A stretch of DNA of 34,708 nucleotides, from the NCBI GenBank assembly GCA_004325065.1, contig PITI01000020.1:1-34708 (forward strand), read 5' to 3'. This document shows, piece after piece, positions 1 through 12,300 of the stretch. The notes under the pieces were generated by a model. The model worked only from the letters and a program-made list of their open reading frames with translations, did not search any database and was not told where the DNA came from. The position numbers and the translations under genes are program-made. Within the stretch, counting starts at the first letter, position 1, and every line of letters starts with the position of its first letter. This stretch comes from Hamiltosporidium magnivora. Lineage: Eukaryota > Microsporidia > Dubosqiidae.

Positions 1-2
1 TA

Positions 3-959
3 GATCAAGGAATTCCATCGTCATGGAAATTTCATCGAATACAACCGGTACCGAAAGGAAACGAAAACTTCAGGCCCATCGCTTATTGAAGAAACAAAAA
101 AACTTTTGAAAAAATCATCTTAAGCAAATTTGATGTACATCTTCATAAGCAACAGGCTGGTTTTAAGACAGGACATTCATCGCTTAACCCCGCGCTTGCA
201 CTCGACACACTCTTAAGACATAGCAACGGCAATATGATAAATGTAACACTCTACATTAAGAAAGCTTATGATTCAGTTGACAGAAATAAACTTTACTGGA
301 AACTAATAAAACTGCAAAAATTTTCTATCAGAGACACAAAACTTATAGCTCACCTTATAGAGAATAACAAATACACTCTGTGCTCAAACAAAGCCACATC
401 ATTAGTAAAGACTGCATCAATAGGACCACCAAAGGGTAGCATTATTTCACCAAAATTGTTTAATATATTTATTGATGATATAATTCACTTTATACAGAAA
501 AGATTTAGACATATGGTATTCCTATATGCTGTCGATATTCTAATATGCCCACCAACGGTCCAAATTGCCCAAAATATCATATTAGGAATGGAAAGGCACT
601 CAACGATTAATAATTACAGATTCAATCCGGATAAATGTTACTACAATACAACAAAAGATATCAGTATCAAAGTATACAACACTAATTTTACAAAACAGAG
701 CCCTCTAAAATACTTATGTTTCTTTTTTATAAATAGAGGGGCAGGAGTGTCCAAATCGACCAAGATCATAAGACAGAAAGCCGTTAGGGCTGCGGTAATA
801 ATGAATAAAGTCATGACAAAGAGCATATTTTACAGAGAAGAAAATAAATACAGAATGAAACTAAAAGGATATACTACGTTTGTGAGACCATACATTGATT
901 ACTTTTCGCAACTATTAGGCTTTCAAAAAACCTTTCTTGATCAGAAAGATAGAATTTAG
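3..959 (+). pseudogene. LINE ORF2 reverse transcriptase, broken (copy A)
   Basis: One frame reads through the RT domain from base 3 to the stop at 957-959, interrupted by a single in-frame TGA at 87-89. Visible blocks in order are an N-terminal 'PVPKGNENFRPIAY' segment (the usual P-x-x-K...RPI block), 'QQAGFKTGHSS' (about 150-182), motif A 'LYIKKAYDSV' (about 246-278), motif B 'GPPKGSIISP' (about 423-455), motif C 'YAVD' (about 525-536) and a C-terminal 'RPYIDYFSQLLG'. Two catalytic positions are altered: the motif A Asp is Tyr (TAC where GAC is expected) and the YADD box reads YAVD. With the stop, the enzyme cannot be active. The first ATG at 234 lies inside the RT domain and is not a real start; the 5' part is off the window. 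Confidence 0.88.
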
Positions 960-1525
960 AAAGGTATAATAAAAACCTATTTAAGATTTACTATCGAACA
1001 CCCTCAAAATTTACGCACTTTTTCCAATAGAAAATGCTTATCAAAGAGCAATGTGATTGAGGTACAATATGGCGTATAAACTAAAAAGAGCAAAAAACAC
1101 AACTATTAGAAAACTATACTTTAGGTTTAACTCAAAGAACCTGAAAACCCTGAAAAACAATTATGTCAGAGACCAGAAAATTTACAAAAATGAAAGCTTA
1201 TAGACTAAATTCAAGAGAATTTTAAAAGAAAAATTAAGGTTAAACTTCAGAACATTTAGTTGGAGTAACACACTAAAAAAATACAATTTCCAAAAATGCA
1301 CCTAAGATGAATTCTCACAGATTTTAAATGTTATACAAACAGAATACAAAAGAAGAGATCTTGGTGATATTTTATTAAAATTTATCTTGATATACATAAG
1401 CCTCCCACATTATAATGAAACAAATGACTATGGCCTAGTTAACCTAAAACACACAAAAAAAAATCAAAAACAAAAGGCGGGGAGCCAGAAATGAACGATA
1501 CCGCCATATTTAAATATTTGGCTAG
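960..1525 (+). pseudogene. Decayed LINE ORF2 C-terminal region (copy A)
   Basis: Downstream of the RT stop, pieces of reading frame in several phases correspond to the Lys/Arg-rich C-terminal region seen better preserved in copies B and C. The end is marked by a 'PPYL' coding block (about 1501-1512), matched by LPYL in B and C and PPYL in D. A 5-bp inverted repeat GGCGG/CCGCC (1476-1480 and 1501-1505) overlaps it. Multiple stops and frame changes rule out expression. Confidence 0.6.
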
Positions 1526-2020
1526 ATTTACACTGCGAGAAGAGATGAGGGACTATTAACGAGCGCGAGTTGGCCATGGGAGTTAGACCCCCCCCCCCCC
1601 AAAAAAAAAAAGACACAGTTGCATTAAAGGGGGTCTTATTGCATATAGGAGCGCGGATCATTAACACTCTTTATGTAAGGGCTACAACAGTAAGCGATAA
1701 GTCAATCCTAAAGGGGTGATACTTTTATTATAAACTAGCAGTGAGCATAAAAGGTGATGGGGACTGACGAGTAGATAAAGGATGTTGTTTTCTTGCCTAT
1801 TGAGGATTATGTATGATGATCGTTAGGGAGTTTTAGATTGATTGAATATAGCCTGAGCCTAAAAGGAGTTAATTCCTGCAGGATAAAGTATGACAATAGG
1901 ACCCCCTTGTTTGATATATAACATAGTCATCGGGTGGCCTTAAGGCTAGGAGAGTAGTTCAGTTAGTTTAAGACGTGTTAATAGAGACCCTAAAACTCTA
2001 TAGTAAAGGTTAGGGTTAAT
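1526..2020 (+). other. 3' UTR of LINE copy A
   Basis: Non-coding and less AT-rich than the rest of the window. It contains a C13-A11 homopolymer junction (1588-1611) and scattered relics of the G-rich motif typical of this family (for example AAAGGGGGTCTTA near 1625 and TAAAGGGGTGATA near 1709). The regular spacing seen in copy C is largely lost. It ends with GGTTAGGGTTAA just before the terminal hairpin. Confidence 0.6.
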
Positions 2021-2022
2021 CA

Positions 2023-2042
2023 TTTCTAGAACTTTCTAGAAA
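2023..2042 (+). other. 3'-terminal hairpin of LINE copy A
   Basis: TTTCTAGA (2023-2030), loop ACTT, TCTAGAAA (2035-2042): a perfect 8-bp stem just before the A/T-rich tail. Copies B, C and D have a hairpin at the same place with different stem sequences. This suggests a structure kept for recognition of the RNA 3' end by the element's own reverse transcriptase (inference). Confidence 0.7.
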
Positions 2043-2439
2043 CATAAAAATATTTAAAGAAAATTTCTTTTTCCTAGCCTAATACAGTAATAATAACCTG
2101 CAATATTATCAATTAAGGTTAATAATGTATACTAAATTTATACGCCCTCATATAGATTATTATCCCAGCTGCTCGGTTGTAATAAAAAGTTTAATGAAGG
2201 CACTGATAGGATACAAAAAGGCATAATAAAATATCTACATAAAATTTATTTCAAAACGCCAACGAAGATCTTATACGCATTATTTCGCTTGGAAAATACA
2301 AAGCAAATAGCGGATAGACTCAGGAGCAATGTTGCTTATATGATCATACACACAAGAAAAACACTTTAAGATGGATATTCAAAACGAATAAATCCAAAAT
2401 ATAAAAAATTTAAAGAAAAATTACAAGTATATCAAGAAT

Positions 2440-2793
2440 ATGGTTCAGGGAAATGAATTTAAAGCCAAATATAATAGATGGCAAAAAGAAAATTTGCGTC
2501 TTAATTCCCATATCTTTAACTCTTTCGAGAATCTAAGGCAGTACAAATCCAAAAGGATTCCAACAACAATATTTAAAACTTTTTTAGATATTATTAGTCC
2601 AGAACATAAAAGAGAAAATATAATTGAAATTTTAGTAAAATTTATTCAGCATAATATAGATCACCCTAACCTAGCGGAGTTTTTATTGGCCTTATTAATC
2701 CACAAGATACGAATTAGCAGGTACGTTAAGGCAGGATTCCCACAAGGGACGTTACTGCCATATTTAAAAATTTTTTACCAGATAATATTTTAA
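2440..2793 (+). pseudogene. LINE ORF2 C-terminal fragment (copy B)
   Basis: A 117-codon open stretch that is not an independent gene. It is the C-terminal domain of ORF2 in the truncated copy B. Copy C has the same segment in several frames (about 7290-7610), including the shared words 'LDIISPE' and 'LVKFIQHNI' and the terminal 'GTLLPYL'. No RT or endonuclease motif lies within it. The function of this conserved C-terminal region is unknown. The ATG at 2440 is internal to the ancestral ORF2, so translation from it is unlikely. Confidence 0.75.
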
Positions 2794-2944
2794 AGCTGAT
2801 TAGGTTGAGAAGATGCCAATGAAACAAGACAATCTGGAACCTCAAGGAATTCCATATGAGGCTTCGTGAAAGTATAAGGGCAGATGAAACTGTAGTAACG
2901 GGTGTTATTAATGATACCAGGAGGAGGGGTTAATTGTGTGTAAA

Positions 2945-2962
2945 TTCTGAAATTTTTCAGAA
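2945..2962 (+). other. 3'-terminal hairpin of LINE copy B
   Basis: TTCTGAAA (2945-2952), loop TT, TTTCAGAA (2955-2962): 8 paired bases. Compared with copy A the stem differs on both sides in a compensating way. It is followed by the shared A/T tail ending TTTTCTTTTCC. Confidence 0.7.
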
Positions 2963-3089
2963 CTTAAAAATATTTAAATAAAATTTTCTTTTCCTAACCC
3001 TTAAATTCCATTTCAGACAAAAACACCAAAAACAATAAAGAAAAACAAATGACAAACCAACAACTCGAAGAATAGTACACGAAAGAACA

Positions 3090-4120
3090 GTGACAGAAAA
3101 CAAGACAAATTATTCAACGTGCGTTGGATGCAAGACTACATTAAAAAGCACAAACATACATCCTCAGAAGACGACAAAGACCGCAGATACAGGTATAGAG
3201 GGCCATAATAGGATCAGAATCATAAATAAGGAAACGGGGGGAAATAACAAGGAAACAACAACAGATCTATCAGGTAATAGCCAGCCTGGTAATACAAGGA
3301 TACCTTCTAAGGAACATAGTGAGACATAATCTGATCAGATAACATCTACATGTAACTCAAGTTTCACAGCAGATCAAGAAAAAAAGTCGAAAATATCAAG
3401 GTCTCCAAAAACAATAAGGCTTTCATGGATATCAAAGCTGTCACCCCATCCTTTTTTTCAAGACATACAAATAATACTCAAGAACACATTGTCTAAAACA
3501 CGGGATAAATAAAATAAAAGCTTCTGATTAAGAATGAAAGCAGTGAAGATGATAATACAGAAAAAGAGAGTAGGGCAATAAATGACAATAATGAAGAGGA
3601 AAAGAACAAGGTAGTGGAAGGAGATAAAAACATCCTAAACACCAAATGGGATATCAAAAATAGTAAGGTGACTAAGGAATCGGATGCGGTTGATACTACA
3701 AGATTGGCAATGATTGAGGACAAGTTGAGTGTTTCTAGGATTGAAGAAACAGATATAATAGCGATATGCACAAGCAAGAACGATATTAAGGAGATAAATA
3801 CTGAGAAAGCTGAGAAAGAAGGACCAACATACACGCCAAATCTTTTAAGGAATAGGTTTAGTGCCGAACTGGGAGGAACGGGATATTTAAGACCGAGGCC
3901 AAAGATAACGATAAGGATCAGAGAAAAACCAATAAGCCTAAGCCAACCACGAAACACAGAAGAATTGAAGAGAATAACAAATGAAGACGGAAAAGACTAT
4001 GACATATCAACAGAGGGTTTAGAAGGATTAATAAGATACAGCGAGAGATTAGAACCCAGACTTAAGAACGAGGTAATGAGCCAGAGGCCCGTACATGAGA
4101 CTAATATATTCAAAAAATAA
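3090..4120 (+). pseudogene. LINE ORF1 N-terminal remnants (copy C)
   Basis: Two open pieces in different frames, 3090-3329 (79 aa) and 3614-4120 (168 aa), are very hydrophilic and rich in Lys, Glu, Thr and Asn. The first carries CVGC (Cys-x2-Cys) early on, possibly half of a zinc-binding site. Position upstream of an endonuclease/RT ORF in the same element indicates ORF1, the RNA-binding chaperone or gag-like protein of LINEs, but no RRM, CCHC knuckle or esterase motif is visible. Long - strand frames over the same bases (3493-3957, 3997-4269) are low-complexity mirror frames. Function is assigned by position only. Confidence 0.55.
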
Positions 4121-4437
4121 TAGTATAGGGAACCGGGTACCTGAATGTTCGAAAACGAGGGAAGAAAAGAATGATGTAGTAGATGCAGTAATAACCTGGA
4201 GGATAAATGTAAGGAGCAGATGAAATACAAGACAGAAGTAGCCATCACAAGTAAGAATAAAGAGCACAAACCAATAATGAATATAAGTTACAGACTTAAC
4301 AACACGAAACTTAATAAGGAGCAGAAAATTTTAATTACACAAGGAAATCTTCATTTACAGTAACAAGGTACATCATTTTATATTTTGGGAACATTTCCTT
4401 TAAGAGAATTTCTCTATACTGGTTAGCTCTTGAGACA

Positions 4438-4803
4438 ATGGAACCGGGTAGTAGTAAAGACGTGGTGAATATGGTGTTCCTATCAAAAACCGTTCTAGAA
4501 GTAATATGCAAGGAGGGTAAGAAAGAGGCGGTTAATCGTGTTTTCCGAAATATAGGAGCAAGGCTTTTAAAGAATTCTCCTGAAGTGGATAGTAATGGGC
4601 TCTTTAAAATCAGTGGCTTTTTAGCAAGAATGAAAAGGATCAAATACAGAAGGAGTAATAATAATTACAAACTTAGAAGACTGGCAGTCAAAGTTCTCAA
4701 GAGTAAAGGGAAAGAGCTGCACAAAGTAATTGGAAGTCTCAATATTAAGGCCAATGATATTGAGATGGACAATGCTTCGAGTCTTAATAAAAAATCCTTA
4801 TGA
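4438..4803 (+). pseudogene. LINE ORF1 C-terminal part (copy C)
   Basis: A 121-codon open frame, highly basic (many Lys/Arg), ending in TGA at 4801-4803. The last bases overlap the ATG of ORF2 in an ATGA quartet. That junction marks it as the end of ORF1. It is separated by frameshifts from the ORF1 pieces upstream, so the ATG at 4438 may be only an internal Met. The basic charge suits nucleic-acid binding (inference). No named domain is recognised. Confidence 0.6.
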
Positions 4804-5345
4804 TTAGTAAAATAGGATTTATAAACGTTGGGGGACTATCTGAGATTAAAACATTTAAGATAAATAACATTTTGAGACAATATGATTTGGAAGTCTTAGG
4901 TATTGCCGAGACATGGAGTCACGATATAATACCGATTGTGAAAGGATACAATATCCTTGGTTTAAAGAAATCTTTAAAAGTAAAAGATAGATATTCTAAT
5001 AAAGAAAGTATGATAGTTTTAAGAAAGATTGGATTAGAATGCGATACAATTGAGAAGTTACTGATGTGAGAGTGTTAATAAAGATTGACAACAAAATTTT
5101 TATATTTATTATTTGTTCTCCTAAAAATAATACTGCTGAAATTCTAAAAACGCCACTACCGACTAAACCAAACAAATAATTTTCATTCTAGGTGACTATA
5201 ACCTAGAACAAAACAAAGCATTCGAAATAGAAGTTTTGAACAATCACGCTGTGTACGGAGTCTCGGAAATAGATCGACACTAACACATTTGCTCAAAACG
5301 ATAAACAATCTGACCCTGATAGGATATTTAGTAACTTTCCAGTAA
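4800..5345 (+). pseudogene. LINE ORF2 AP-endonuclease domain (copy C)
   Basis: The N-terminal domain of ORF2 nicks target DNA to start reverse transcription. The open part (4800-5069, 89 aa) starts 'MISKIGFINVGGLSEIK', matching the first strand of APE-type endonucleases with the conserved Asn. It then has 'VLGIAETW', which contains the catalytic Glu (usually QET). After a stop the domain continues in another frame with 'FILGDYN' (about 5182-5202), the GDxN block, and possibly the late 'DPDRIFSN' block (about 5312-5335). The start ATG overlaps the ORF1 stop. Stops at about 5067 and 5281 plus frame changes make it non-functional here. Confidence 0.8.
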
Positions 5346-5934
5346 GTACTTAAATTATTAAGATTGAAGAAATGAACCATAAACTGTTATTTATTCAACA
5401 ATAACTGCACTAAGGAAAAGACAAAATATTACATGAAACTCTTAAAAATCCAGAACTAGCAAAATGCCTTAGATAGAAAATTAAGATCCTAATGAGAAGG
5501 AATGAAAATTTAATAAAAAAAACCTTCCTATAGATAAGTTGCACCGCTCTCCATAACATTTTACTATAAGTCGTGCGAAGACTAGTCATACGTAAGCAGA
5601 GCCGAGAAAACTTACATCCTATAATACAGAAGCAAGAAGAAACGCGAAAAAGCAAGAAATAACAATCAGGAACTTTTTGATCGCTTTTACAGTGATGTTA
5701 AAAGGTTAAGAAAAACCTACCAGAAGCAGACACAAGAGACCTAAAAGTAGAACATATTGGAATTGAAGCCTCTATACAAGAAGCTATAATAAATTTCATG
5801 CACCGCAATAACAAAAACTAACTTTAACAATAAAGTTTTACTTAAAAACTTTATTCTAGATGGAAAAATAATAAGCATAACAAAAACTATTGAATGGATC
5901 AAAAACTACAAGAACAATACTTGGAATAAAACGT

Positions 5935-7190
5935 GATATCAGGACAAACAAAATTAATTCAGTGAGTGAGGAAGAAGTATGCAATTATATCAAAACACTC
6001 AAGAAAGACAAAACAAGCGGAATCAGTTGTATTAAAATGAGTTCCTAACGCTATACCTTGCTAACTTGTAAACGTACTAACAGAGATGTATCACCCCAAA
6101 ACAACGTATATATGATATTCAAGGCTTGGAAGAAGCACATCATTGAACCGATACTGAAAAGCAAAAAAATTAAAACCAATACTTAAATAGAGAAACGCGA
6201 AAACTGTTGGAGAAATTTATTATAAAAAGTTTTGGCATAAAAAGTTCAAGACAGCAAGCGGGGTTTAAAAGAGGACAACCAACATTAAATCACGCATTAA
6301 ACCTCGAAACTCGTCTTATACATAGTAAGAAGAAAGAATATGTGATAAACTTGATATTTTTAAAACATATGACAGCATTTACCGGAAAAAAACACTATAA
6401 GAAACTCATGATTAATCAGAGGTTTTATAGAGAAGAGACTAATCTGATAGCTGAGCTAATCTAAGACGATTAATACAGGATTTATACCCTGGTAGATAAA
6501 AATGACTAGAAAACAGCCGCTAGGAGTACCACAAGGCAGCATAATACCACTAATAGAATTTAACAAATTCATAGATGACATACCCCGAAAGATATCTAAA
6601 TACTTAGAACCGTACATATTTACATATGCAGACGATATTCTTCTCTTTTGTTGCGACCAAAAAACATCTAGTTTATGATGAATCAATGTCAGGAGCATGT
6701 TATTAAAAATATATATAAACTATATCCCAATAAATGCTTCTATAACGCATCGACTGAATATGAATTTTACATAGATAAGGTAAAGATAAAGAAACAGGCC
6801 CCTTTAAAATACCTAGGATATTTCTTTAATAAAAAATGTGCCGATACCCAAAAAAGTAAAAACAATAAGACAAAAAGCGATAAAAGTAGCCGTCATACCA
6901 TATAAGATACTTAAAAATAGCGAATTTAGCAGAAAACAAAGTATGCACACTTGAGCTTTAGAGCATACAAAACTTTTATAAGACCACACATAGATTACTT
7001 TTCTCAACTCCTTGGATGCAATAAAACATCTATCGAAGGAACAGATAGAAAACAGAAAAGCTCTACAAATACCTGTTTACGATATATTACAAGATGCCTA
7101 GTAAGATTCCATATGCCATTTTTCCAATTGAAGATTCAACACAAAGAGCAAGAAGACTCAGAGGTAATATTGCACACAAAATCATAAATT
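5935..7190 (+). pseudogene. LINE ORF2 reverse transcriptase, frameshifted (copy C)
   Basis: RT blocks can be followed across several frames. 'SEEEVCNYIKTLKKDK' (about 5964-6011) is the usual entry block. 'RQQAGFKRGQPTLNHAL' follows (about 6249-6299). Motif A is intact only in a shifted frame, 'LDIFKTYDSIYR' (about 6350-6385). Motif B 'GVPQGSIIP' and motif C 'YADD' lie in a 58-aa open stretch at 6502-6678. The thumb region 'PLKYLGYFF' (about 6798-6824) and 'RPHIDYFSQLLG' (about 6983-7018) complete it. Unlike copy A, the catalytic residues are preserved, but at least three frame changes and several stops break the gene. It is therefore the better template for the ancestral enzyme. Confidence 0.85.
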
Positions 7191-7289
7191 CTAGAAAAAC
7201 TCTTTTAAGGCATATTTCAAACCAACAGGTATTAGAATATTAAAGATTTAAAGAAACAATATAGGTTAATTAAATTTTTGTTAACGGGC

Positions 7290-7610
7290 AGTGAATTCTA
7301 CGCCGACTATAAAAAAACGGCATAAAGAAAATCTACGGCTCAATCTAAGAATATTCAATGGTCTTCTTCGTTAAGATCTTACAATTTTAAAATGATAACT
7401 TCACAAAAATTTAGATAAATTTTAGACATCATCAGCCCAGAGCGTAAAAGAGAAAACAAAGTTGATATTTTAATTAAGTTTATTCAGCATAATATAGGCC
7501 TGCTAACCTAGCAGGGTTAGTATTAGCCTTATTAATCTACAAGATCGAACTACCATATATGTAAAAGACGGGAGCTCGAGAGGGACATTACTGCCATATC
7601 TAACTATTTT
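7290..7610 (+). pseudogene. LINE ORF2 C-terminal region (copy C)
   Basis: Frame-broken homologue of the open frame at 2440-2793 of copy B. Shared are 'KENLRLN'-type, 'DIISPE', 'LIKFIQHNI' and terminal 'GTLLPYL' segments, plus the following AAACAAGACAAT (about 7656). No catalytic motif is seen. Conservation of the very end of the coding region in all four copies suggests a functional C-terminal domain or an RNA signal overlapping it. Confidence 0.6.
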
Positions 7611-7755
7611 AAACAGATAACACATTGGAGCAGATCAAGGTGAGGAGACACCCATGAAACAAGACAATGTGGAACCTCAAGGAGTTTTCAGATGAGGCTT
7701 CGTGGAAGTATAAGGCCCACATGAAACTGGTAGTAACAGGTGATAATTATCATCT

Positions 7756-8275
7756 AGAGGGGGGTGTTAACTGAGAGTGAGTTCTCAGAATCTAGTCGCA
7801 ACAATTAAAGGGGTGTTATTCATAATGCTACTAGGGGGTGTTAGCATAGGAGAGTGACCTAAGGGGTGTTAACTACTAAAAAGGTGGTAGTTTGACATCA
7901 GTATTAAAGGAGTGTTAACCATAGTCCAGTGGCTTAAAGGGTGTTAAGTACGACACAGCTACTAAATGGGTGTTAGTGTACCGTCAATAGCAAAGGGATG
8001 TTAATCATGTGAACCTGTTTAAGGGGGTGTTAAGTATATGACAAGTATTAAAAGAGTGTTAGTTTAGCCTTAGTAGTAAATAAGTGTTAGCCATTGGACA
8101 GTGGTGCATAAGGGGGTTGTTAAGTACGATGCAGCTGCTAAGGGGTGTTAGTTAAAACTTAGTAGTAAAGGGGTGTTAACTGTGTGAGCGTGACTAATTG
8201 GGTGTTAAGTATAAGACAAGTACTAAAGGGGGTTTAAGCTCCTCGAGCAGTATTTATATGCAAAGGGGTGTTAGT
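7756..8275 (+). repeat. 28-29-bp G-rich minisatellite in LINE 3' UTR (copy C)
   Basis: About 17 units with core AAAGGGGTGTTAA. The TGTTA part starts near 7765, 7814, 7839, 7867, 7913, 7942, 7971, 7999, 8028, 8057, 8085, 8118, 8146, 8174, 8203, 8232 and 8269. Most steps are 28 or 29 bp. Six units form a higher-order repeat of about 172-176 bp: CAGTGG at 7927 and 8099, TAAGTACGA at 7945 and 8121, TAAGTAT at 8031 and 8206. The G-rich strand is the element's sense strand. Degenerate versions occur in copies A and D, and copy B keeps only one or two units. Confidence 0.85.
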
Positions 8276-8284
8276 TGTATGCAG

Positions 8285-8302
8285 TTCTAGAATTTTCTAA
8301 AA
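8285..8302 (+). other. 3'-terminal hairpin of LINE copy C
   Basis: TTCTAGAA, loop TT, TTCTAAAA region: TAGAA (8288-8292) pairs with TTCTA (8295-8299), then one mismatch and two more A-T pairs. It is weaker than in A and B but in the same position, between the minisatellite and the A/T tail (8303-8335). Confidence 0.55.
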
Positions 8303-8689
8303 ATTTTAAAATATTGAAATAAAATTTTCTTTTCTATTCAAAAATCAAAGAAGAAAATCTAAGACTGAACTATAAGTCTTTGAATGGAACAAAATTCTTA
8401 AATAATAGAATTTTAACCGACAATCAACAACAAATATCAATAAATTACCTAGAATCTTGGATTCGATAAATAAATACAAAGATCTTGTTGAAATCTTGAT
8501 AAAATTCATGCAAGCAAATATGGGCCAATCTATGCGCGAAGGTTGGTTACTGGCCTGATAACCAAACAAATAACGAAACGAATCGCGATAGGGCGGGGAG
8601 CCATTTTATACAAAACCGCCGTATTTAAATAATTTTAAACAAATAACACTGGAAACAGACAAATCTAGATATTATAGAAATACTGATTT

Positions 8690-9145
8690 TTAAAGGGGGT
8701 AAATGATATGACAATGGAGCTCTCTAAACCTATTAAAGATAGAGAATAAAGGGTGTTAATTTACCGAGTACCTTACTCTTAAGGGTGTTAATGATAAGAG
8801 ACTGCGGCCTCTACAACACTACTTTACATACATTAAGAGTGTGTTAACCCAATGTGATATAAGCCAACCTGGAGTGTGTTAAGTAAAAGGAAATTCTATT
8901 GATTACGACCCTTTAAATGGGTAGGAATTATGTCGCTTGTAAAGGGGTCTTAGATATATGTGTGTTGGGTTGTTATATTGCACTCAAAAAACCTGTTTCT
9001 TTAATGTGGGTATATTACTTAGAAGAAATCCAGGGGTGCGTGTAAATAAGACCCCCTTGGAGTATTGGGATAAATGGGTGTTATTTCTATGGGATTGTAC
9101 TGTGTCCTAATACCCCCTTGTTTTTTTTATTTCTAATGGGGTGTT
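8690..9145 (+). repeat. Degenerate G-rich repeat in LINE 3' UTR (copy D)
   Basis: Motifs such as AAAGGGTGTTAA, TAAGGGTGTTAA and TAAGAGTGTGTTAA recur every 30-60 bases. They are related to the minisatellite of copy C but more decayed. Both G-rich (GGGGTNTTA) and C-rich (ACCCCCTTG near 9052 and 9112) versions appear in the second half. Confidence 0.6.
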
Positions 9146-9255
9146 AGACAAGGGCCATTGGGAGCACGATTAATACCTTTTAATTTTAGTGGTTTCTATA
9201 GGTTTAGTTGTGGTGTCTGAAGGTGTTTTTTTTCGTATGATGTGTAGCTGAAATT

Positions 9256-9281
9256 TCTAAATTTTCTTTGGAAATTTTAGA
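9256..9281 (+). other. 3'-terminal hairpin of LINE copy D
   Basis: TCTAAATTTTC (9256-9266), loop TTTG, GAAATTTTAGA (9271-9281): ten pairs with one T-T mismatch. It is followed by an A/T tail like that of the other copies. Confidence 0.65.
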
Positions 9282-9320
9282 CACGTAATATTATTCAAAT
9301 AAAATTTCTTATTCCTTCTT

Positions 9321-12300
9321 ATTAAATAAACTGGATATTATTTTACATGAGGTTGTTAAATTCAAATTAACTTGACAAATAAAGGGGTAGTAGAAATAGA
9401 AATTTGACTTCTAAAGAATTTTCATTTTCCTTCTGGCCTTCATCGTAAGTCAAACCCTTTTAACTGATGAATAATAAAGTAATCTAATCGATATTTTTCC
9501 AAATTTCTCAAAAAAAAATTGCTTTTCAAAATATCTGGATGTTGAATATAACTCTATGCAGACTTGGTATATTATCACCCCCTGTATTATTGAGCAGAAT
9601 TTTTTTAACTAGGAATTAAAGTAGTTTTTTGTGTTTCAAATTTTAAATAATATTTTTGTCCTCTAAAACTTGTTTTAAAGACGAAAAAGATGTCTTGGAA
9701 TAAGTATTGGACTTTTAAGCTTCTAGTTTTGTATATTATTATAAAAAAACATTTTATGACATATAAAAAAAGAAGAATCGAATCTTAAAAATTGTCGAAA
9801 CGGATAGTTGAGGGCAGAAAAAAATAAATTAAAAACGGAAACTGTTTTTTTATTAATCTTAATATTTTTTTCTTATGCATGCTTATATTGTTTAGGCTGT
9901 TACCTTGTTTCGTTTACAATGTTTTTTTAATTATCTTTTTCTATCTCTCAGTCAATGCGTTGAATTCACCTATTTTTTCATATTTAAGTTTTTAATCTTT
10001 GACTTTTTTTCTTAATTGGGTCTCTTATATGACATTATGTATCATAAATAATTTTTTTTGCCCAAAAAATCACTTCTCTTGGATATTTTTGTTTCTTAGG
10101 CTCTTATTAAGTCTTGATTCTGGATTTTGACCCTTCTGTTGATAAATAAAAATTATTTTAATATAATTTACACTTGACTGATTCAAGATTTATTTTTATT
10201 TGTAACTAAGTTTTCTTAATGTAAATTTCGTGGTATTAGTACATAACGACTCGGTTTACGGTAATATGACTTTTTCTATTATACAAATAAATATTATCCA
10301 TTATTTCGAAATTAATTTTGATTGCCAGTTGGACTGTTACAAGTTAATCTTGGGGATTATAATTTCTATTTAAAAAAGGTTTGTCTGATTTTTATTATTT
10401 TCTAAAATAATTTGAGTTATTTTTTTCATTTTCACATGATTTTTTGTTCGCTTCTATGTTCTCACCAAAGATAATTTTTCTAATCTTCCTGGCCTTTTCT
10501 TCTGATTTGTTATTAGACGATTTATATTATCTGATGGCTTGCAATATATCTTTATTAGGGTTTTATTTTGCGTTTTTTGTTCCTATGTTCCTCAAATTTC
10601 TTCAAAATAACTTTGAGTATCTCAATTTTTTACCGGATTAGTCTCACTTTTTACTTGGTTAGTTCTTTATAATATATTTTTATCTTTATTATAGCAGAAA
10701 CATCAATTATGTGTCTTCTCATTTAGTCATCTTGAGGAATCACAAATAATTACAAGCGTATTATTTAGAATTAAAAAACTTTAAGTAAAATTTTCGCTGC
10801 TATATTTCTTTATTCTATTAAATTTATTCTATCCTGCAAATTTTTTTATTTAGACTTATTCCGCTAATTATAATTAGCACTTGAGGAAATATTTTTCGTG
10901 CAAGATGTGTTATAAAATTGTTTCTCTTAAAATACTTCTGCTTTTGAATTATAAAATGTCTTGGTTTTTTATATGAAAAACTATCCTTGGATTTATATTT
11001 TCGCGCGTATCTCAAATATATTTAGACATCTTCTAATGATTTGTGAAAGTACAAACGGCTTGTCATTCCTGGGGTAGACACTTTTTTTATGCTAGAATCG
11101 GATTCTTTACATTATAAATTTTGAAAATAACTTTTATATACCAAAATAAGTAATCTTAAATAATTTTCGGGTTTACTTTTATTCTGCAATTCAAACCCTT
11201 TTTGGCGTAAAAATTTGTTAGACAAATCTGTTTATATGGAACATATATATAGCGTTAAAAAAAACAAATTCTCTTATTTTATAATCTATTGTTTCGGACA
11301 TATCTGAATTCATTTTTTTATGTTCGTTTTAGATTATTTTAAAGTTATTTGAAGGCGAGTTAATTTTTGTCAAAAAATTGTTTGTAATAAATCTATGGTT
11401 GTATTATTAAAATACATTTTTCGAATTATACTTCGATAGCGAAAAAAACAGAACTTTTTGGACAAATACATGAATATGTCTAAGTTAAATACAGGAAGGG
11501 AAAAGTATTTGTGGTAAAATATGATAATGTGTTGAAATCTTGAAAATTCTCACAACTCGTTGCGACACGCTTTTAATAACCTTTCGGATAGGACCATAAT
11601 AAATGTCATGGCAATGGAATTCTTCTGTATCTAGTCCTCAATAAACACGAATTTTAACTTTCAAAACGCATCAAAATTCACCTGTTCCACTATTTTTTCT
11701 AGATTTTATTTCCAAAATTGATTATATTTTGGTAAATACAAATACCGAAATAGAAACCCAAACAATGATCGATTTATTGTTCAGAATATATTAAATAGAT
11801 ACCTCAAATTTTGTCCGAAATACATATCAAGTTTTTTCTAAATTTTGCAATTTTAGAGGCATTGTGATTTTATACAAGTTTACAATGAAATGAGTCTTTT
11901 ATAAAGTTTAAAAACACTTATTATTGTTCAACGATTCTGTTTTAACGCTTTTCTATATAGAGTTTATACTGAACTCAAGATAAATAGTGCAATAGAAGCA
12001 TATTTAAATTTAATATCACTTGAAAAAAAATGTTCTGAATCCTTTTTTTTTAACCTAAGAAGAAATTTAGTAACAATAAATACGGAGTAACATAGAAAAA
12101 TGTAAAAAAATATTCTGTAAAATGTGAATATGCATTGGAAATTTGAAACAAAAAAATTTCTAATTTTTGGAACTAAAATTCGAGATAAACTAAAAAAATG
12201 TTCAATTATCTGATAGGCTTGTGAAAATTCAAATGAAAAAAAACGAATAAAAAAAAAGGGTGGAATCACTTACATAAGAATACAAACTTGACATCAGATT

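Follow-up and report, generated by a model that had tools for sequence, protein, structure and literature searches.

A tail-to-head LINE array with telomere-type joints at a contig end of the microsporidian Hamiltosporidium magnivora

We find that the left end of contig PITI01000020.1 of the microsporidian Hamiltosporidium magnivora is filled by four copies of a long interspersed nuclear element (LINE), all on the + strand and joined tail to head, and that most of the examined tails of this family run into a telomere-type repeat, which suggests that this element settles on chromosome ends. The host has TTAGGG-type repeats and an apparently normal telomerase gene, and the array was probably built by a LINE with two open reading frames (ORFs) whose targets are chromosome ends or telomere repeats. 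The window analysed is the entire contig (C20, 34,708 bases; C-numbers denote contigs of the draft genome, 10.74 Mb in 644 contigs), so base 1 is a contig end, and it falls inside the first copy, A; the array thus fills the left end, on the side where a first-pass annotation of this DNA had placed a possible chromosome end.

The four same-strand copies described in that annotation are borne out by direct reading, BLAST and a covariance model, with joints at 2079/2081 (A/B), 3000/3001 (B/C) and about 8336 (C/D); all features of the array given here lie on the + strand. Copy A (1..2079) is cut by the contig end within its reverse transcriptase (RVT_1 match at 48-719, with one stop) and retains the ORF2 end, a long 3' untranslated region (UTR) and a tail (2051..2072; 2051-2079 with its unit), and the degenerate telomere-type unit CCTAGCC is read directly at 2073..2079. 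Copy B (2081..3000), which is 5'-truncated and starts at the point from which longer copies on C105 and C494 align with it, ends in a tail of the form TATTTAAATAAAATTTTCTTTT (2971..2992; 2971-3000 with its unit) and the telomere unit CCTAACCC (2993..3000), which is seen both by direct reading and in the tail pattern search. Copy C (3001..8335) is near full length with both ORFs broken, its ORF1 region holding open stretches to 4803 and its ORF2 matches spanning 4800-7499 with many stops; its tail (8312..8335) may extend to 8339, the last bases possibly belonging to D already. Copy D (8336..9318), 5'-truncated and strongly diverged, closes the array with a tail (9292..9318) that matches those of other copies. 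A telomere-type unit is present at joints A/B and B/C and missing from joint C/D and from the end of D. Copies B and D consist of the ORF2 end and 3' UTR only (with the tail and, in B, the unit), as had been claimed, with D the weakest case: this most diverged copy is unreported by an ORF2 tblastn search over 160 kb and is found weakly with three other short stretches (33% over 51 amino acids, expectation value (E) 0.002), while its hairpin, like its tail, matches the other copies. A repeat search of the window reveals no long terminal repeats.

Copy B is 90.9% identical to the C494 copy and 90.0% to the second C105 copy, compared to 70.1% for its neighbour C, and adjacent copies thus belong to different subfamilies, from which it follows that they arrived separately. 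Tandem duplication of one LINE insertion through recombination would also leave adjacent copies on the same strand, but it does not accommodate neighbours that diverge further from each other than from copies on other contigs, and we reject it as having next to no likelihood.

CCTAAC is the C strand of TTAGGG. Among 17 tails examined on eight contigs, ten are followed by exact CCTAAC (behind B, the second C105 copy, C494, C399, three on C19, two on C207 and C210), four by variants (CCTAGCC behind A, CTTAACCC behind the first C105 copy, CCCTAA on C233 and CCC only behind the tail upstream of the C233 copy) and three by neither; hairpins and tails at other contig ends were what the first-pass annotation had proposed to look for. 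Telomere motifs reported in microsporidia are TTAGGG in H. tvaerminnensis, B. daphniae and G. vavrai (PMC12449221), TTAGG in Encephalitozoon and N. ceranae and TTAG in species MB (PMC12449221, PMC10158259, PMC11592040, PMC13174016). The pattern TTAGGN{0,2}TTAGGN{0,2}TTAGG matches twice in 10.74 Mb, at C19:5650 and C210:225, with a tail immediately before each match, and 2.7 and 3.3 units stand behind the tails on C399 and C210, respectively. The tail pattern AAATAAAN{7,13}CCTAACC gives 12 matches, of which 9 are tails of the family, and a reversed control gives 2; the matches on C113, C170 and C194 were judged by eye to be chance. A further motif, CCTAACCCTAAC, has 5 matches at 4 places, two of which are tails, and no LINE tail is seen at those on C144 and C190. 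The right end of C190 holds a CTAAC-rich degenerate stretch with CCTAACCCTAAC, about 155 bases from the contig end and without a LINE tail. By these patterns, which seemingly covered contigs above about 10 kb, no terminal telomere tract is found at contig ends, both three-unit matches being interstitial.

These units also bear on an alternative raised in the first-pass annotation, a LINE that targets its own 3' tail. Part of that idea is retained, since the tails carry a telomere unit and targeting telomere repeats would itself yield tail-to-head joining. As a telomere-unrelated process, in which a site-specific LINE targets its own tail or another sequence and CCTAACC is merely its 3' end, it is very improbable: the joints do lie at tails and a single CCTAACC unit could belong to the element, but extra tandem units (CCTAACCCTAACCCTAACCC) occur on C210, C399 and C19, both three-unit sites of the genome directly follow tails, and the copies are oriented relative to contig ends.

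This orientation is uniform, with 3' ends pointing inward, away from the nearest contig end, on 8 of 8 judgeable contigs (7 of 7 without C233, whose copy is on the + strand slightly left of centre; C329 is left out of the count), which extends to other contigs the earlier observation that 3' ends face the gene-bearing side. The family is on the + strand at the left of C19, C20, C105 and C210 and on the - strand at the right of C207, C399 and C494, and the array reaches the contig end on C20, C105, C207, C494 and C399. Other reverse transcriptase matches point inward on 7 of 16 contigs (hypergeometric 0.009 versus the family, computed post hoc), these being what remains of 29 contigs with RVT_1 after leaving out 6 with the family, 1 with telomerase and 6 of no recorded length. 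An assembly chimera, or a chance cluster of ordinary insertions, might be suspected in a draft assembly with repeats at its contig ends; we consider it most improbable, as the same type of joint occurs on C20, C105, C207, C233 and C19 in different subfamilies, and C329 carries at least four hairpins on one strand.

We find an 841-residue telomerase catalytic subunit encoded on C509, in which the RNA-binding domain of telomerase (E 3e-18) is accompanied by RVT_1 (E 5e-18) and by the stretches FYCTE, DIKSCYD, QGLPQG and YIDDF, which we take to be telomerase core motifs. Loss of telomerase, which the first-pass annotation had suggested looking for, is ruled out by this gene. Together with the TTAGGG-type units, the gene goes part of the way towards the refuting result that the annotation had named, normal telomere repeats with TERT at all chromosome ends. 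A system of the Drosophila type, with ends kept by LINE additions alone and no upkeep by telomerase, is thus very unlikely here: tail-to-head arrays with 3' ends inward and the lack of an assembled telomere tract would suit it, but the catalytic subunit and the TTAGGG-type units at the tails would not. What survives of the proposed telomere-array-like structure is the array itself, its orientation and the telomere units at most tails; its strong HeT-A/TART form is not supported, and with a telomerase gene present the likeness is to telomere-targeting LINEs that live beside telomerase, such as SART/TRAS, MoTeR/FoTeR, CNL1 and GilM/GilT, rather than to a Drosophila-type replacement.

If the LINE targets chromosome ends, its RNA would end close to AAUAAA-AUUUUCUUUU and might or might not include a CCUAACC unit, and a G-strand 3' end of the telomere (5'-GGGTTAGG-3'), exposed as a natural overhang or at a nick, would prime its reverse transcriptase. 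The complementary DNA would grow outward, so that the LINE 3' end would face the centromere, followed by CCTAACC; incomplete synthesis or later erosion would shorten the outer (5') end, and the next copy would attach outside the previous one. We place attachment to short or eroded ends ahead of insertion into tracts by a small lead. Where joints inside arrays were read, they contain no more than about one unit (3-8 bases), the copies run in a single direction, and truncated copies are capped by new tails, A on B and the outer tail on the C207 host-gene piece described below. A credible, if not quite probable, variant is that the same LINE inserts inside long telomere tracts by nicking the G strand, the arrays being collapsed or eroded tracts. 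The endonuclease-like N-terminus of ORF2 (sub-threshold), the 2.7 and 3.3 units on C399 and C210 and the telomerase gene are consistent with this, but the near-single units at the joints contrast with the 3-7 TAACCC copies at FoTeR 3' ends (PMC12857005) and with the need of SART1 for at least three repeats (PMC7265360).

The only copy with both ORFs open is on C233, where ORF1 (351 amino acids, 5524-6579) and ORF2 (914 amino acids, 6572-9316) overlap by 8 bases. Assignment to the LINE class is supported by the RVT_1 match of ORF2 (E 1.7e-31), a sub-threshold endonuclease match upstream of it and the 5'-truncated copies B and D. No restriction-like endonuclease domain appears in the Pfam list for ORF2, NCBIfam returns only a group II reverse transcriptase match far below its cut-off, and the endonuclease part finds nothing useful in the PDB. 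ORF1 contains a CxxC..CxxC stretch by eye, and for its first 309 residues the sole Pfam match is to C1, below threshold (E 0.013). The family shows no poly(A) tail. Genome-wide, ORF2 matches lie on C19, C20, C105, C207, C233, C329 and C494 and, weakly, on C74 (E 5e-6), with tails or short copies also on C399, which has a hairpin and a tail, and on C210, which has just a tail; a candidate on C308 was rejected as another LINE (33% over a short piece). C329 (14,364 bases) holds at least 4 hairpins and ORF2 matches from 547 to 12,274, all on the + strand; three of the hairpins were found by the model, which was run on contig pieces (two weakly, E 0.01 and 0.05), and one more by pattern.

Several results weigh against targeting of chromosome ends. 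The telomere unit is absent behind C, D and the third C105 copy, three of the 17 tails and two of them in the window. The first and third C19 tails, the outer C207 tail and the C210 tail were listed via telomere-letter patterns or by adjoining such a tail; without these four, 6 of 13 tails carry the exact unit, and with the C399 and second C19 tails also set aside, which were found by BLAST with B's tail, 4 of 11 do. No chromosome end is assembled, and contig ends often fall in repeats for technical reasons. The open copy on C233 lies near the middle of its contig, whose first 2.5 kb give zero ORF1 or ORF2 matches and only short weak DNA matches. The tails on C210, two on C19 and C207 and the one upstream of the C233 copy follow no stretch that can be recognised as a LINE body. 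At residues 9-136 of ORF2, the exonuclease/endonuclease/phosphatase match scores 21.1 bits, below the Pfam cut-off of 24.5, and the best PDB matches of its reverse transcriptase are R2-type chains, the kind that the PDB holds, which give no clade.

A conserved GC-rich hairpin in the 3' UTR is shared by all four copies (A, 1474..1513; B, 2728..2767; C, 7564..7603; D, 8590..8628), with covariance model E from 3e-16 to 2e-10, all four being among the 12 sequences used to build the model, and in each copy a tail of the TATTTAAATAAAATTTTCTTTT type follows about 200-710 bases downstream. The alignment of 12 copies gives the form GGC[A/G]GGGAGCCC-N4-GGGAC-RTTAC[T/C]GCC, in which 89.5% of cells pair, compared to 33.7-49.5% after one strand is slid by 1-3 columns. 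Both sides are changed in 6 cells; one shuffle in 500 reaches this count, and one in 500 the covariation score. The tally of pairs altered on both sides (2, reached in 115 of 500 shuffles) and that of pair types (405 of 500) are unexceptional. Allowing up to 3 mismatches, the pattern has 6 matches genome-wide (C233, C207, C329, C399, C19 and C20) and none for a reversed control; it misses half of the 12 aligned copies, and more diverged copies may therefore exist elsewhere. A constant AT-rich stem-loop right before the tail was also considered, with mixed results (z < -1.9 in four of eight folded stretches and weak in the others; the tail upstream of the C233 copy supplied two of the eight, which overlap), so the structural case rests on the GC-rich hairpin. 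In the 3' UTR of copy A, a C run followed by an A run at 1589-1611 is possibly a slippage or assembly feature.

The sequence at the joints suggests a further role for the tail. On C105 and C207 the next copy starts with CCC directly before ATGGC and on C233 with CCCATC before ATGGC, which places an ATG 0-3 bases behind the tail plus CCC; this ATG opens ORF1, which is intact only on C233, and copies C and the third of C105 have no ATG at that position. In E. cuniculi, 5' UTRs are shorter than 7 bases, most start codons have a CCC-like motif directly before them, ribosomal protein genes carry an AAATTT-like signal upstream of that motif, and polyadenylation is signalled by AAUAAA (PMC2803860). 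Here, CCC or GGG occurs within 15 bases before the ATG of 6 of 10 ORFs of at least 150 residues, compared to 5.6% of 1295 ATGs, with AAATTT-like motifs less telling (7 of 10 versus 33%); the ribosomal protein S11 gene has AAATAAAATTTTTATTTAAAAACCCTTAGAG before its ATG and the C207 joint has AAATAAAATTCTTTCTTCCTAACCC. The tail plus unit (AAATAAAATTTTCTTTTCCTAACCC before ATG) resembles a microsporidian poly(A) signal followed by an AAATTT/CCC promoter, and by this likeness the final 30 bases of the tail, telomere unit included, would double as the promoter of the next copy, much as the HeT-A 3' promoter does. As a tentative and rather doubtful extension, read from sequence, the telomere repeat might be a working part of LINE expression: with almost no 5' UTR of its own, the element would use AAATAAAATTTTCTTTTCCTAACCC to end one copy (AAUAAA), to anneal to the telomere and, with telomere-derived CCC, to form the next core promoter, so that a copy would be switched on by the telomere or array, and host-gene pieces would be carried by template switching.

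Such pieces are found on C19 (1600-2600) and at the right end of C207, where fragments of a multi-copy host gene are joined to some 93 bases from a LINE tail, with a telomere unit. The gene is leucine-rich-repeat-like by eye (Pfam LRR_8 only E 0.08); upstream of the tail it has paralogues on other contigs as matches, the tail portion finds LINE tails only, and paralogue pieces on C513 and C511 lose similarity near the fusion point. The 93% likeness of the two fused copies makes a single event followed by exchange likely. This host-gene order and strand would result from template switching by the LINE reverse transcriptase, but also from recombination.

The window as a whole has a GC (guanine plus cytosine) content of 26.7%, the four parts of the array standing at 30-34% and the sequence beyond at 24%. 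Ordinary genes lie right of the array, encoding a GPN-type ATPase, a Ras/Rab GTPase, a class 3 lipase and a ubiquitin-conjugating enzyme. The top four PDB matches of ribosomal protein S11 (6zu5, 7qep, 7qca and 6rm3, E 4e-56 to 2e-45; next 1e-39) are presumably microsporidian ribosomes, organism names being absent from the search output. Directly right of copy D, the stretch 9319-9389 is 80% like one behind a transposase-like gene at the right end of C156, and by eye reads as a Merlin/IS1595-type DNA transposon remnant. Rfam gives zero matches in 1-9400. The motif GGGTGTTA forms 287 adjacent short-spaced pairs genome-wide, on both strands and many contigs, against 0 for a reversed control; it occurs before the telomerase gene and in LINE 3' UTRs, among them those of C and D (7811-8207 and 8751-8790), and its spread over the genome is why it was dropped as a hallmark of this LINE.

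The array had been thought new for microsporidia. Telomere LINEs are known as a kind, listed for insects, Giardia, Chlorella, Pyricularia, an anole and rotifers (PMC10088271), and in Microsporidia sp. MB, the nearest microsporidian case, LINE stretches of up to 10 kb are reported to flank the telomeres of most chromosomes (PMC13174016). The likeness to species MB is by description only: its repeats are TTAG, and the available part of the source leaves joints, order and orientation undescribed (PMC13174016). Parisot et al. 2014 count microsporidian LINE families, and the word telomere is unused in the part available. The claim of novelty therefore narrows to the joints, the array order, the orientation and the tail-promoter arrangement: among the literature matches listed, there is no microsporidian report of telomere-repeat joints or tail-to-head LINE arrays. 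A microsporidian case with joints read at base level adds a lineage at, or beside, the root of the fungi, and bears on how often LINEs and telomerase share chromosome ends. Telomeric LINE arrays may also help explain missing ends in draft assemblies of such genomes, and the promoter idea, if true, would mean that a 3'-end promoter arose in telomeric LINEs on another occasion besides HeT-A, here with the telomere repeat included.

SART1 and TRAS1 of Bombyx mori have two ORFs, and MoTeR of Pyricularia and FoTeR of Fusarium have a single ORF with a restriction-enzyme-like endonuclease; compared to MoTeR, FoTeR and CNL1 of Cryptococcus, the element described here has two overlapping ORFs and an N-terminal endonuclease-like match of another type. 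SART1 and TRAS1 resemble it as LINEs within telomere repeats of a host that keeps those repeats, and differ in belonging to the R1 clade and in being inserted in opposite directions (PMC7265360, PMC10088271); SART1 also has a poly(A) tail and its three-repeat requirement (PMC7265360), whereas here no such tail is seen and joints hold about one unit. FoTeR and MoTeR are fungal telomere LINEs with TAACCC units at their 3' ends, one motif at their 5' ends and truncated copies, as here, FoTeR differing in its 3 to 7 units (PMC12857005). CNL1 likewise forms copy arrays in subtelomeres, flanked on the outside by telomere repeats, but is an R2-like, MoTeR-related element with a single ORF that also inserts in a gene (PMC12810828). 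GilM and GilT of Giardia share one-direction head-to-tail arrays, 5'-truncated copies and long 3' UTRs, their arrays lying between subtelomere and telomere repeats (PMC5537684); they differ in falling into the CRE clade by reverse transcriptase (PMC10088271), and a tail promoter is unmentioned in the available part of PMC5537684. HeT-A, TART and TAHRE of Drosophila form head-to-tail arrays with 3' ends inward, and in HeT-A and TAHRE a 3'-end promoter serves the next copy (PMC5537684), but that system lacks telomerase and has poly(A) tails, in contrast to the telomerase gene and telomere units found here. Athena elements and Terminons of bdelloid rotifers, with a Penelope-like rather than LINE reverse transcriptase, share short telomere repeats at 3' ends and 5' truncation, and carry captured host ORFs in one direction (PMC5537684), to be compared with the host-gene pieces on C19 and C207.

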